Shown here: piece by piece, positions 3,325 to 55,199 of the stretch
Position numbering within the stretch: position 1 is the stretch's first letter
Layout of the letters: every line of letters starts with the position of its first letter
Assembly (NCBI RefSeq): GCF_000215995.1
Contig: NC_015680.1
Coordinates: forward strand, 186,001 to 250,000
Direction of reading: 5' to 3'
DNA: 64,000 bases
Source of the DNA: Pyrococcus yayanosii CH1
GTDB taxonomy: Archaea > Methanobacteriota_B > Thermococci > Thermococcales > Thermococcaceae
Translations under genes and position numbers: made by a program
Notes under the pieces: generated by a model
Told to the model about the DNA's origin: nothing
The model's database searches: none
The model's input: the letters and a program-made list of their open reading frames with translations, nothing else

Positions 3325-4172
3325 TCCCCCTTAAGGCCAAAGCTCTCTTGAACTTCATCTATCAGCTTGTTCAGCTCATCCACGAACTCTGGCCTTTCTC
3401 TGTTCACGAACTCACCGATGATGAACTTACCCTCAAGTTCTTCTGGACTCATATTCTTCGCCTTGCTTATGGGGATGGCATTCTTCAAGAACCAGCGGAG
3501 CATCTCCGCAGGTTCCTTCATCCTGTTCCTCCTTCCGTACTGGACCGGACACTGAGAGATTACCTCAACGAGCGAGAAACCCTTGACGGTTAGGGCCTTT
3601 TTGATGCTCTCGATAAGCTGGTAGACGTGGGCGGTGGTCCATCTTGCCACATAGGATGCGCCGGCGGCGACCATCTCGGCTATATTGAGGGGATGTTCAA
3701 CGTTCCTGTACGGCGTTGTGGTGGTTTTGGCCCCGAAGGGCGTGGTTGGGGCAACCTGACCGCCGGTCATTCCATAGATGAAGTTGTTGACGAGGATGAC
3801 GGTAATATCTATGTTCCTCCTCGCGGCGTGGATGAGGTGGTTGCCGCCTATGCTCGCTAAATCTCCGTCCCCACTTATGACAACTACCTTCTTGTCGGGA
3901 AGGCCAACCTTGACGCCGGTAGCGAAGGCTATCGCCCTTCCGTGCGTCGTATGGAGGGTATCCGCCAAGAAGTACGGCGAGGCGATCCAGGCAGAACAGC
4001 CGATACCGCTAACGACAACCAAATCCCTCGGGTCAATCTTTAGCTGGTCAATAGCGTTGGCAAAAGCGTTGAGAACCGTTCCACCACCACAGCCCGGGCA
4101 CAAAGCGGTTGGCAGAGCCTCCTTGCGGAGGTACTTGACCATAGGATACTTGGAATAGATTTGCTTCACCAT
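3321..4172 (-). CDS. korB: 2-oxoglutarate:ferredoxin oxidoreductase, beta subunit
   Basis: TPP-binding beta subunit of 283 residues. It shows LCPGCGGGT near 24-32, SGIGCSAW, and SGDGDLASIGGNHLIHAARRN with NN downstream, as in the paralog at 754-1599 (the TGGQVAPTTP segment is identical). ATG at 4172 overlaps the alpha stop by one base (TGATG) behind GGGGTG. It is the catalytic partner of KorA and probably holds one 4Fe-4S cluster. Confidence 0.9.
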   Translation of the reverse strand: MVKQIYSKYPMVKYLRKEALPTALCPGCGGGTVLNAFANAIDQLKIDPRDLVVVSGIGCSAWIASPYFLADTLHTTHGRAIAFATGVKVGLPDKKVVVISGDGDLASIGGNHLIHAARRNIDITVILVNNFIYGMTGGQVAPTTPFGAKTTTTPYRNVEHPLNIAEMVAAGASYVARWTTAHVYQLIESIKKALTVKGFSLVEVISQCPVQYGRRNRMKEPAEMLRWFLKNAIPISKAKNMSPEELEGKFIIGEFVNRERPEFVDELNKLIDEVQESFGLKGE

Positions 4173-52480: not shown

Positions 52481-52522
52481 TTAAAATTTTTTGAATTTTC
52501 AGATATTGTTTTAAAATTTTTT
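52481..52522. repeat. Two direct TTAAAATTTTTT repeats, 30-bp period
   Basis: TTAAAATTTTTT occurs at 52481-52492 and 52511-52522, exactly 30 bp apart. Both lie on the upstream side of the TATA box (GTATTTAAC, 52561-52569) of the RHH-ftsZ operon. A phased A/T element of this kind could bend DNA or bind a regulator on one face. Confidence 0.5.
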
Positions 52523-52560
52523 AAGATCCATATTATATCGGCATTATCCAGAGGCAAAAA

Positions 52561-52569
52561 GTATTTAAC
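52561..52569 (+). promoter_or_regulatory. TATA box of the RHH-ftsZ operon
   Basis: GTATTTAAC with an A-rich BRE before it predicts a start near 52592 and a leader of about 30 bases before ATG 52621. Confidence 0.5.
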
Positions 52570-52620
52570 TAATTAAAGCAAGGCTCAAAGCAGTGAACGG
52601 CTGCACCGGGTGTTGCACTG

Positions 52621-52812
52621 ATGAGCAGAATGAAGATAATCAGCGTGCAGCTGCCTCCGAGCCTTATACATGGGCTTGATGCCCTCGTTAAAAGGGGGCT
52701 ATATCCCAACAGGAGCGAAGCTATTCGGAATGCCATTCGGGAGCTCCTTAAGAGAGAGCTCTACAAAGAAGAAATTGAGAGGGAATCCCTTCCCGAATAC
52801 ATTGTTAGATAA
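52621..52812 (+). CDS. RHH regulator upstream of ftsZ (CdrS-like)
   Basis: A 63-residue ribbon-helix-helix protein: beta strand KIISVQLPPSLIHGLDALV, then YPNRSEAIRNAIRELLKREL. It lies 18 bases before ftsZ. In haloarchaea the short RHH protein CdrS is cotranscribed with an ftsZ gene and controls cell-division genes; the same size and position suggest an equivalent here, which is an inference. ATG 52621 or ATG 52630 could start it. Confidence 0.85.
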   Translation: MSRMKIISVQLPPSLIHGLDALVKRGLYPNRSEAIRNAIRELLKRELYKEEIERESLPEYIVR

Positions 52813-52830
52813 CCCCCGGGGGAGGAGAGT

Positions 52831-54060
52831 ATGGTGTTTAAGTTGTTGGAGCAGGCAGGAATAAACTTGGACTTTGACGACGGAGAAAAAACAAAAGCTG
52901 GTGAATACCTTGGGGGACTTGATGATCTGATAAAGATAGCAATAATAGGCGTCGGTGGTTCTGGTAACAACACAATATCGAGGCTCTACGACCTCGGTGT
53001 CCAAGGGGCCGAGCTCATAGCCATGAATACGGATGCCCAGCATCTAGCCCAGACTAAGGCCCATAAGAAGATACTGCTCGGAAAGAACATAACACACGGG
53101 AAAGGTTCGGGTGGCGACCCGAGGATTGGTTACATGGCCGCCGAAGCCAGCGCCCAGGACATTGCCGAGGCCGTAAAGGACGTTGACCTAGTCTTCATAA
53201 CGGCTGGAATGGGCAATGGAACCGGAACAGGTGCGGCTCCCGTGGTGGCGAGGATAGTCAAAGAGACCGCGAGGAATAACGGCCGCTTTCAAGAACCCCT
53301 AGTCGTGAGCGTCGTAACGTTCCCCTTCAAGAACGAAGGTACTATTAGGACGGAGAAGGCCAAGGCGGGTATAAAGCTTCTTCTCGAGTACTCCGACACA
53401 GTAATAATTATACAGAACGACAAGCTCCTCGAGTTAGTCCCAAAGCTTCCAATAAACGCCGCATTCCGCTTCGCCGATGAGATAATAGCAAGGATGGTTA
53501 AGGGGATAACCGAGACTATAAAGCTTCCCTCCATGGTCAACATAGACTTTGCTGACGTTTACAGTGTCATGAAAGGTGGCGGTCCAGCACTCATAGGCAT
53601 CGGGGAGAGTGACTCCAATAACAGAGCCGTGGATGCCGTTATGAACGCCCTTAACAACAAAATGCTAGACGTGGAGTTTGGCAGTGGTGATAAGGCACTT
53701 GTTCACTTTACGGTTGGCCCAGACGTCAGCCTTGGCGAGATAAACGCTGCCATGAACGTCGTTTACGAGCGGCTCGGCGAGAAGAGCGAGATAAAGTGGG
53801 GTGCGATGGTGGACGAGGATATGGGCAAGACTGTGAGGGCCATGGTAATAATGACGGGTGTTAGGAGCCCGCAGATACTAGGAAACGTCAACGCCCTGGT
53901 GGACTCGACTTCAATAGTTATGCCGAGCAGGAGGGAGTTCCTGAAGGACTCCAAAGTCGATAAGATATTCGGTTCAATACCCGATCCAAGAAGGGAGCGT
54001 CAGCTTAGGTCCACTCCTAAGGAACTCGATTACATCTTCGCGGACTTCTACGAGCTCTAA
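52831..54060 (+). CDS. ftsZ: Cell division GTPase FtsZ
   Basis: A tubulin-like GTPase of 409 residues that forms the division ring. [19 protein letters not shown] near 34-52, the G-box [13 protein letters not shown] at 125-137, and the T7-loop region [23 protein letters not shown] short C-terminal tail ends [10 protein letters not shown], possibly an anchor-binding peptide. GGGGGAGGAGAGT precedes ATG 52831. Confidence 0.95.
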
Positions 54061-54109
54061 CCTCCTAAACACTTTTTAATTATTCTGACCAATATCCCCA
54101 GGTGATGCT

Positions 54110-54883
54110 ATGGCAATTATCATCAGCATTGCTAATCAGAAAGGGGGCGTAGGTAAAACAACGATCGCCTTGAACCTTGGCCATGCCCTTGCCCGCATCG
54201 GGAAGAAGGTCCTCTTGGTGGACATAGATCCTCAGTTTAACCTAACGTTTGCCCTGATAGGGATGGATGTTCTGAAGTATGAGGAGAACAACGTGGGAAC
54301 CCTGATGACTAGGGAGAGCGACGTTCGTGAAACGATCGTAGAAGTCAACGAGAACCTTCACTTACTACCAAGTCATTTGAACCTCTCCGCCAAGGAGATT
54401 GAGATAATAAATGCCTACAATAGGGAGAGGAGACTTGAAAGGGCTTTACGTCCCGTTCTGCCCGACTACGATTATGTCATCATAGACAACCCACCCAGTA
54501 TGGGCATATTCCTCGTGAACTCTCTCACGGCCTCCGACTACGTTCTAATCCCGCTGGAGCTTAGCTACTTCGGCGTCATAGGAATGCAGCTCATGTTTAA
54601 CCTCATGAAGATGATAAGGGAAGAAACCAACGAGTCCCTGACTCTTCTCGGCATAGTTCCCAACAAGTTCACCCGCCAGACGAAGGTCCCCCAGATGAGG
54701 CTGAGGGAGCTCAGGGAGACGTACCCCGACGCTCCCCTCCTGACGACCATACCTAAGGCAATATCTCTGGAAAAGGCTCAGGCTGAGGGCCTGAGTATCT
54801 TTGACTACGAGCCGGACGGGAGGGCCGCTAGGGCCTTTGAAAAGCTTGCCAAAGAGGTGGTAGAGATTGTCGAGGAAGGATGA
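54110..54883 (+). CDS. ParA-family ATPase (SegA-like)
   Basis: A Walker-type partition ATPase of 257 residues. The deviant Walker A NQKGGVGKTT is at 9-18, DIDPQFNLT is the A' region, and YDYVIIDNPPSMG is Walker B. It is followed by a small RHH DNA-binding protein with a 17-base overlap, as in archaeal SegAB chromosome segregation pairs. A TATA-like CTTTTTAATTA precedes it at 54072-54082, GGTGATGCT before ATG. Confidence 0.9.
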   Translation: MAIIISIANQKGGVGKTTIALNLGHALARIGKKVLLVDIDPQFNLTFALIGMDVLKYEENNVGTLMTRESDVRETIVEVNENLHLLPSHLNLSAKEIEIINAYNRERRLERALRPVLPDYDYVIIDNPPSMGIFLVNSLTASDYVLIPLELSYFGVIGMQLMFNLMKMIREETNESLTLLGIVPNKFTRQTKVPQMRLRELRETYPDAPLLTTIPKAISLEKAQAEGLSIFDYEPDGRAARAFEKLAKEVVEIVEEG

Positions 54884-55199
54884 TGCCAAGATACCGAAGC
54901 TCTTTTCCGGCTCCATAGACGAGCTGAAGAAGCCCGGAAAGAGAGCAGAGAAGGGGAAAGACCTGAAGAGAGAGAAGATGCAAAAGACCCTCTACATAAC
55001 TCTAGACACAAACAGGAAACTCATCGAGCTTTACGCGGAGGAGGGAAGGAGGCAGAGCAGGATAATAGAGGATGCCGTTAATCTTTACTACTACTTGCGG
55101 ATGGCCTTAGGAGAAAGGAAGTTCGGAGAGCTCGTGGAGGCCGTCAGAAGGGAGGACCCGGAGTTCCTGAGGGAGTATCTGAGAAAGCTCAAAGTATGA
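54867..55199 (+). CDS. RHH DNA-binding partner of ParA (SegB-like)
   Basis: A 110-residue protein. The first ~38 residues are charged and likely disordered (SRKDDAKIPKLFSGSIDELK). The RHH fold follows: QKTLYITLDTNRKLIELYAE, then QSRIIEDAVNLYYYLRMALG. A C-terminal helix ends it. TTG 54867 is the only in-frame start and has GGTGG nicely placed inside the end of the ParA gene. Size and order match SegB of Sulfolobus, which binds centromere-like sites. Confidence 0.8.
   Translation: MSRKDDAKIPKLFSGSIDELKKPGKRAEKGKDLKREKMQKTLYITLDTNRKLIELYAEEGRRQSRIIEDAVNLYYYLRMALGERKFGELVEAVRREDPEFLREYLRKLKV

Follow-up and report, generated by a model that had tools for sequence, protein, structure and literature searches.

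A Soj-type ParA and a small overlapping partner gene adjoin cdrS and ftsZ2 in most Thermococcales

The archaeal partition pair SegAB has been studied in Sulfolobus, which divides by means of ESCRT, and the Thermococcales offer a natural test of how archaea that possess FtsZ link DNA segregation to division. Two components are already known, namely CdrS with FtsZ2 and a ParA with a small partner. The cdrS-ftsZ2 pairing, in which a small ribbon-helix-helix (RHH) gene lies directly upstream of ftsZ2, is conserved across Euryarchaeota (PMC7439475, PMC8406309). Deletion of cdrS in Halobacterium lowered ftsZ2 and misregulated three par-family genes (PMC7439475), and for CdrS of Haloferax 18 ChIP sites were reported, the published targets being different (PMC8406309). 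No gene accompanied segAB consistently in a 2025 survey, the Thermococcus used in that study being T. sibiricus (PMC12284271).

The window analysed here is a stretch of 64,000 nucleotides of Pyrococcus yayanosii CH1, belonging to a single contig of 1,716,818 bp. Four genes were confirmed in it on the + strand, between positions 52621 and 55199:

52621..52812, + strand: cdrS-type gene encoding a 63-aa RHH protein (RHH_1 and CdrS matches; orthologues before ftsZ2 in sister families)
52831..54060, + strand: ftsZ2, 409 aa, the CdrS-linked paralogue (TIGR00065, E=3e-107)
54100..54106, + strand: Shine-Dalgarno sequence AGGTGAT of parA, inside the 49-nt gap between ftsZ and parA
54110..54883, + strand: parA of the Soj type, 257 aa, with the deviant Walker A motif QKGGVGKTT (AAA_31, E=4.7e-56)
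54867..55199, + strand: small partner gene, 110 aa, with a TTG start within parA, the N-terminal motif IPKLFxGS..L.KP, a lysine-rich linker and a predicted RHH-like core; homologues occur in 60 fetched loci

A preliminary description of this DNA had compared the RHH protein before ftsZ with CdrS, and this comparison holds. The protein consists of a single short RHH domain (Pfam RHH_1, E=2.3e-9), its best NCBIfam model is CdrS (E=1.3e-10) and the gene that follows is the FtsZ2 copy. Since the NCBIfam model describes the haloarchaeal equivalog with a cut-off of 100 bits and the match reaches 41 bits, the protein is a CdrS-like orthologue and not the haloarchaeal equivalog. Residues S8 and Q10 of the CdrS strand are invariant across the Thermococcales and the sister families compared. 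Three tubulin-family genes are present in the genome. FtsZ1 (1619709) has secE- and spt5-like genes downstream, whereas FtsZ2 of the window, which is about 50% identical to the FtsZ1 copies, has the RHH gene before it; the third (934741) we take to be a more distant, CetZ-like member. The locus lies about 0.53 Mb from cdc6 on a circle of 1.72 Mb and is therefore not origin-linked.

The claim that a ParA overlaps a small partner gene is also correct, the 110-aa gene beginning 17 nt inside parA (11-41 nt in relatives). The gap between cdrS and ftsZ2 measures 18-81 nt, on the same strand, in all loci examined, and that between ftsZ2 and parA 22-87 nt across the order; in the loci read the latter includes a GGTG stretch that resembles a Shine-Dalgarno sequence. 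The partner starts with TTG in 58 of the 59 loci in which the start was mapped, while cdrS and ftsZ2 always start with ATG and parA nearly always does; the TTG may serve to lower translation, or it may be imposed by the codons of parA with which it overlaps. The ParA combines the deviant Walker A motif KGGVGKTT with a Soj-type sequence, its nearest solved relatives being Soj/ParA proteins at 124-135 bits, against 48 bits for Sulfolobus SegA, and it is the only Soj-type ParA of the genome.

The 110-residue product had likewise been described as an RHH protein, which is not supported at the sequence level (RHH_1 matched 1 of 19 members, at E=0.06) and is suggested by the predicted fold. The protein is composed of an N-terminal motif of the type IPKLFxGSxxxLTKP, present in 54 of 59 start-mapped loci, a linker of 15-23 residues, variable and rich in lysine, and the core KTLYISxDxNRKLIELYGEEGRRQSxIVEDAVNLYYYL. 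The full-length AF2 model was of low confidence and uninformative, and only the model of the 75-residue core was usable (pLDDT 87), in which two helices and then a third come after an extended segment. Foldseek searches with it returned mostly RHH folds (CopG at 2.0 A over 41 columns, Arc, NikR, MatP and the ParB of pCXC100), each individual match being weak (E>0.5); the fold is predicted to be RHH-like. RHH plasmid partition proteins carry an N-terminal tail beside a DNA-binding core and are partnered with ParA; by analogy the N-terminal tail of the present protein is likely to be the part that stimulates ParA. Unlike in those systems, no iterated binding sites were found adjoining the pair. 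AAATCAG-like units spaced by about 12-14 bp, in the gap between the partner gene and the downstream gene ribL, had been considered as an iteron array similar to that of SegB/parS. This reading was dropped because the repeat also precedes ribL in genomes that have no partner gene there (genus g4, see below) and reads TGATTTTA on the ribL strand. The TGATTTTA units, about 12-14 bp apart on that strand, were seen before ribL in loci L054-L063 and L074-L113, and these repeats at the 3' end of ribL are probably its stop/terminator sequence.

To survey the gene order, ParA and FtsZ were looked for in 94 Thermococcales genomes, 13 of them from the genus denoted g4 and 81 from the others, and the sequence of 80 stretches was read. 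Among the 76 non-g4 genomes in which adjacency could be determined, 75 have FtsZ2 and ParA side by side, 60 as fully read loci and 15 from match coordinates. Of the other six of the 81, five are incomplete or interrupted by contig ends, and the sixth, G034, is complete and lacks the pair. In the 60 loci the order is aminotransferase (-), cgi121 (-), cdrS (+), ftsZ2 (+), parA (+), partner (+), ribL (-) and PUA (-), subject to contig or stretch ends. The linkage is thus kept in five of the six genera of the order, and since the arrangement is conserved over the 94 genomes it is not due to chance; the two modules do stand side by side, as had been proposed.

In genus g4 ftsZ2 is directly followed by ribL in the ten loci read (nine whole and one cut at a contig end). 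Both in g4 and in G034 the pair is absent at this spot and the remaining locus is collinear where the flank was read. As these genomes retain cdrS-ftsZ2 and the candidate operator described below, the linkage is not obligatory. The genome of G034 (L052; genus g3, complete, 1.52 Mb) contains neither the ftsZ-linked ParA pair nor SegB and represents a natural null for both partition systems, and their function is therefore dispensable in it. In three sister families cdrS precedes ftsZ2 and no such ParA follows, and in one of them (f2) a ribL-like gene comes directly after ftsZ2. As cdrS-ftsZ2 of the sister families lacks the pair and is followed in one of them by the same downstream gene, the simplest history is probably a gain of the pair on the Thermococcales stem, by insertion between ftsZ2 and ribL, with at least two later losses, in g4 and in G034. 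In the FtsZ2 tree the pair-bearing genera g2 and g6 (FtsZ2 identity of 61-68%) branch outside the remaining genera and g4 falls within them, a topology to be read with a long-branch warning.

The closest relative of the pair found outside the order is located on the 58-kb plasmid NC_001732 of Methanocaldococcus jannaschii (MJ_RS09090/MJ_RS09095). Its ParA is 47% identical and its 110-aa partner 28-29%, and the two genes overlap likewise (11 nt); unlike the Thermococcales locus, it is plasmid-borne with no cdrS or ftsZ nearby. Five g4 genomes possess a further ParA away from ftsZ2, accompanied by a partner gene in each of the four that were read (L064-L067), and this ParA is nearer to that of the M. 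jannaschii plasmid (59%) than to the linked one (about 55%). These relationships suggest that a partition cassette, mobile or plasmid-borne, was captured downstream of ftsZ2. Named genomes scanned with an alignment of the partner gave matches in Thermococci only. A partner-like protein of 111 aa (33% over the alignment) is encoded by the 103-kb Thermococcus nautili plasmid NZ_OX281346 (L156 2902-3237), where it has no adjacent ParA.

The promoter of cdrS contains the following elements:

52531..52546, no strand assigned: candidate CdrS operator, degenerate TAATAT-N4-ATATTA (TATTAT-ATCG-GCATTA, 9/12), from the promoter alignment of 34 loci
52555..52577, + strand: BRE/TATA core promoter CAAAAAGTATTTAACTAATTAAA, from column conservation over 68 loci
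52564-52577: inverted repeat TTTAACTAATTAAA overlapping the TATA box

The 110 bp upstream of cdrS show a mean identity of 67% over 68 loci, against 31-52% for neighbouring promoters. Every locus examined contains TATTTAAC, and 67 of 68 contain TATTTAACTA; TATTTAACTAxTTAA is nearly invariant, with TAATAT-N4-ATATTA centred about 33 bp upstream of it. In all Thermococcales loci that were scored, the best match to the 12-base palindrome lies between -85 and -94; it reaches 11-12 of 12 in 45 of 68 loci, compared with 0.7% of shuffles. When 26 genomes were searched throughout for the exact palindrome, 10 contained it, each as a single copy lying within the cdrS promoter (10/10), and the reversed control pattern was present in two genomes. 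With the promoter model R1 the cdrS promoter was the sole strong match in each of 14 genomes; a wide CdrS regulon was ruled out, this model giving no second strong site. In the sister families, f2 has a perfect palindrome (12/12) at -58, beyond the TATA box (0-2 of 400 shuffles), f4 one of 11/12 at -54 (9 of 400 shuffles) and f3 a weaker match, up to 11/12 near -149. Such a pattern would be expected of a dedicated autoregulatory operator, with CdrS as its putative binder. Genomes that lack the ParA pair have the element as well, which assigns it to cdrS-ftsZ2, the pair having come under its influence when it was inserted. Since conservation of operator and promoter is no lower in g4 and G034, the regulation is demonstrably built around cdrS-ftsZ2 only. 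For genus g3 a hairpin in the 5' leader of cdrS was considered and dropped, its folds being inconsistent across genera.

That the ParA and the 110-aa protein are orthologous to Sulfolobus SegA and SegB, so that an authentic SegAB would lie beside CdrS-FtsZ2, had been suggested on account of the common layout, in which the ParA gene overlaps a small gene downstream of it; the RHH fold predicted for the core, with SegB 7dv2 among its weak fold matches, agrees with it. However, the partner showed no similarity to SegB in single-sequence and profile searches against 7DUV and 7DV2, hhalign against the 7DUV segment gave a probability of 0.1%, and SegA is a much more distant relative of the ParA than Soj is. 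A protein of the g4 genomes served as positive control. All but one of these genomes carry another ParA (about 42% identical to that of the window; SegA match of 77 bits, against 48) followed by a 102-aa protein that matches Sulfolobus SegB 7DUV at E=1.5e-9. Authentic SegB is present in 12 of the 13 g4 genomes, the exception being only 61% complete, and absent from all 81 genomes outside this genus, so that its distribution is the reverse of that of the linked pair. On sequence evidence the 110-aa protein was rejected as an orthologue of SegB, and we consider the SegAB explanation very improbable. Genome G078, which we take to be T. sibiricus, falls in g4, and the 2025 study consequently probably saw the authentic pair only. 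The N-terminus of the g4 SegB carries the stretch 'KKALGRGLEALI' (L069, reverse complement 3593-3901; L070; L072), which resembles the N-terminal ParA-activating box of bacterial ParB; it is possible that this protein is a hybrid partner with a ParB-like box and a C-terminal domain of the Sulfolobus SegB type.

It could also be argued that the pair, like MinD, MipZ or PomZ, positions the FtsZ2 ring or some other cargo instead of moving chromosomes, which would account for the linkage to ftsZ2. The presumed operon with ftsZ2 fits this possibility, as does the fact that ParA/MinD ATPases often position division proteins, and the ParA has a weak superfamily match to MipZ (E=3.7e-11). That match is, however, weaker than the one to AAA_31 and superfamily-generic, the partner looks DNA-binding, the genome has separate MinD-like proteins and in g4 the pair is swapped for a segregation system, SegAB; we regard ring placement as unlikely. 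Of comparably low probability is a passive hitch-hiker, that is, a plasmid partition cassette kept behind ftsZ2 by operon inertia without any coordination of division and segregation. The M. jannaschii plasmid relative, the loss of the pair in G034 and g4 and the unchanged cdrS regulation in its absence are all consistent with this, but the pair has been kept between the same genes in five genera, it is missing mainly where SegAB is present, and its ParA is 78-85% identical to that of the window in most genomes, FtsZ2 itself being 61-68% identical in the deepest genera.

The explanation that we favour, and consider fairly probable, is a four-gene operon autoregulated by CdrS, in which a plasmid-type ParA and its RHH-like partner are supplied together with FtsZ2 and do the job of SegAB. 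CdrS would repress or tune its own promoter through the TAATAT-N4-ATATTA palindrome, perhaps binding also the inverted repeat on the TATA box, and would thereby set the level of FtsZ2 and, through read-through, of ParA and the partner. Read-through from ftsZ2 into parA is likely because in most g3 genomes the gap is too short for a conserved promoter and a leader; in some genomes A/T-rich stretches in this gap may be weak promoters or terminators. The gene arrangement thus suggests co-transcription of the four genes. The partner core would bind chromosomal sites and the N-terminal motif would stimulate ParA, and the two proteins would together move chromosomes or compact them, which elsewhere is the work of SegAB, so that the linked pair would fill the role played by authentic SegAB in g4. 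The response of ftsZ2 and of par-family genes to cdrS deletion in Halobacterium speaks for this explanation; against it stand the degenerate palindrome of the window, the undiminished conservation of operator and promoter where the pair is lacking, the 18 sites and differing targets of Haloferax CdrS, the absence of both partition pairs from G034 and the distance of the locus from cdc6. The complementary distribution with SegAB suggests this segregation function, and a non-orthologous displacement of SegAB by the linked pair appears plausible from the same genomic comparison; division and segregation would then be under coordinated control. We propose only tentatively, being close to undecided, that a plasmid-derived ParA/RHH pair replaced SegAB inside the CdrS-controlled FtsZ2 operon, giving one autoregulated transcript, and that g4 reverted to SegAB and uncoupled both processes. 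If true, this reversion would provide a natural comparison with and without the coupling.

In the literature searched, which lay largely outside the subscription journals, we found no description of the conserved combination, of its complementary distribution with authentic SegAB or of the single-copy operator, and the suggestion that RHH, FtsZ, ParA and RHH had not been described as one unit is borne out within it. A division tubulin and a partition pair are thus brought together at one locus in organisms some of which are genetically tractable (e.g. Thermococcus kodakarensis), and with the single-copy candidate operator CdrS can be tested in vitro on a defined site. Moreover a mis-annotation is corrected, as two unrelated-looking ParA partners would fill one niche within one order.

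Compared with the SegAB of Sulfolobales (PMC12284271; PDB 7DUV, 7DV2, 7DUT), the likeness lies in a ParA overlapping the gene of a small DNA-binding (RHH) partner, the RHH fold of the Thermococcales partner being a predicted one; the linked ParA is nearer to Soj, its partner has no detectable SegB similarity and the pair is tied to ftsZ2. ParG, omega and the ParB of pCXC100 would work in a like manner, as RHH DNA binders with an N-terminal tail beside a ParA, and the last two are among the weak profile or fold matches of the partner, with no significant sequence relation. With cdrS-ftsZ2 of Halobacterium and Haloferax the locus shares the small RHH protein immediately 5' of ftsZ2 (PMC7439475, PMC8406309). 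Whereas Haloferax CdrS has 18 ChIP sites, the Thermococcales candidate operator stands at cdrS, and no further copy of its exact form occurs in the genome; there is no cdrL, and a ParA pair has been added downstream.
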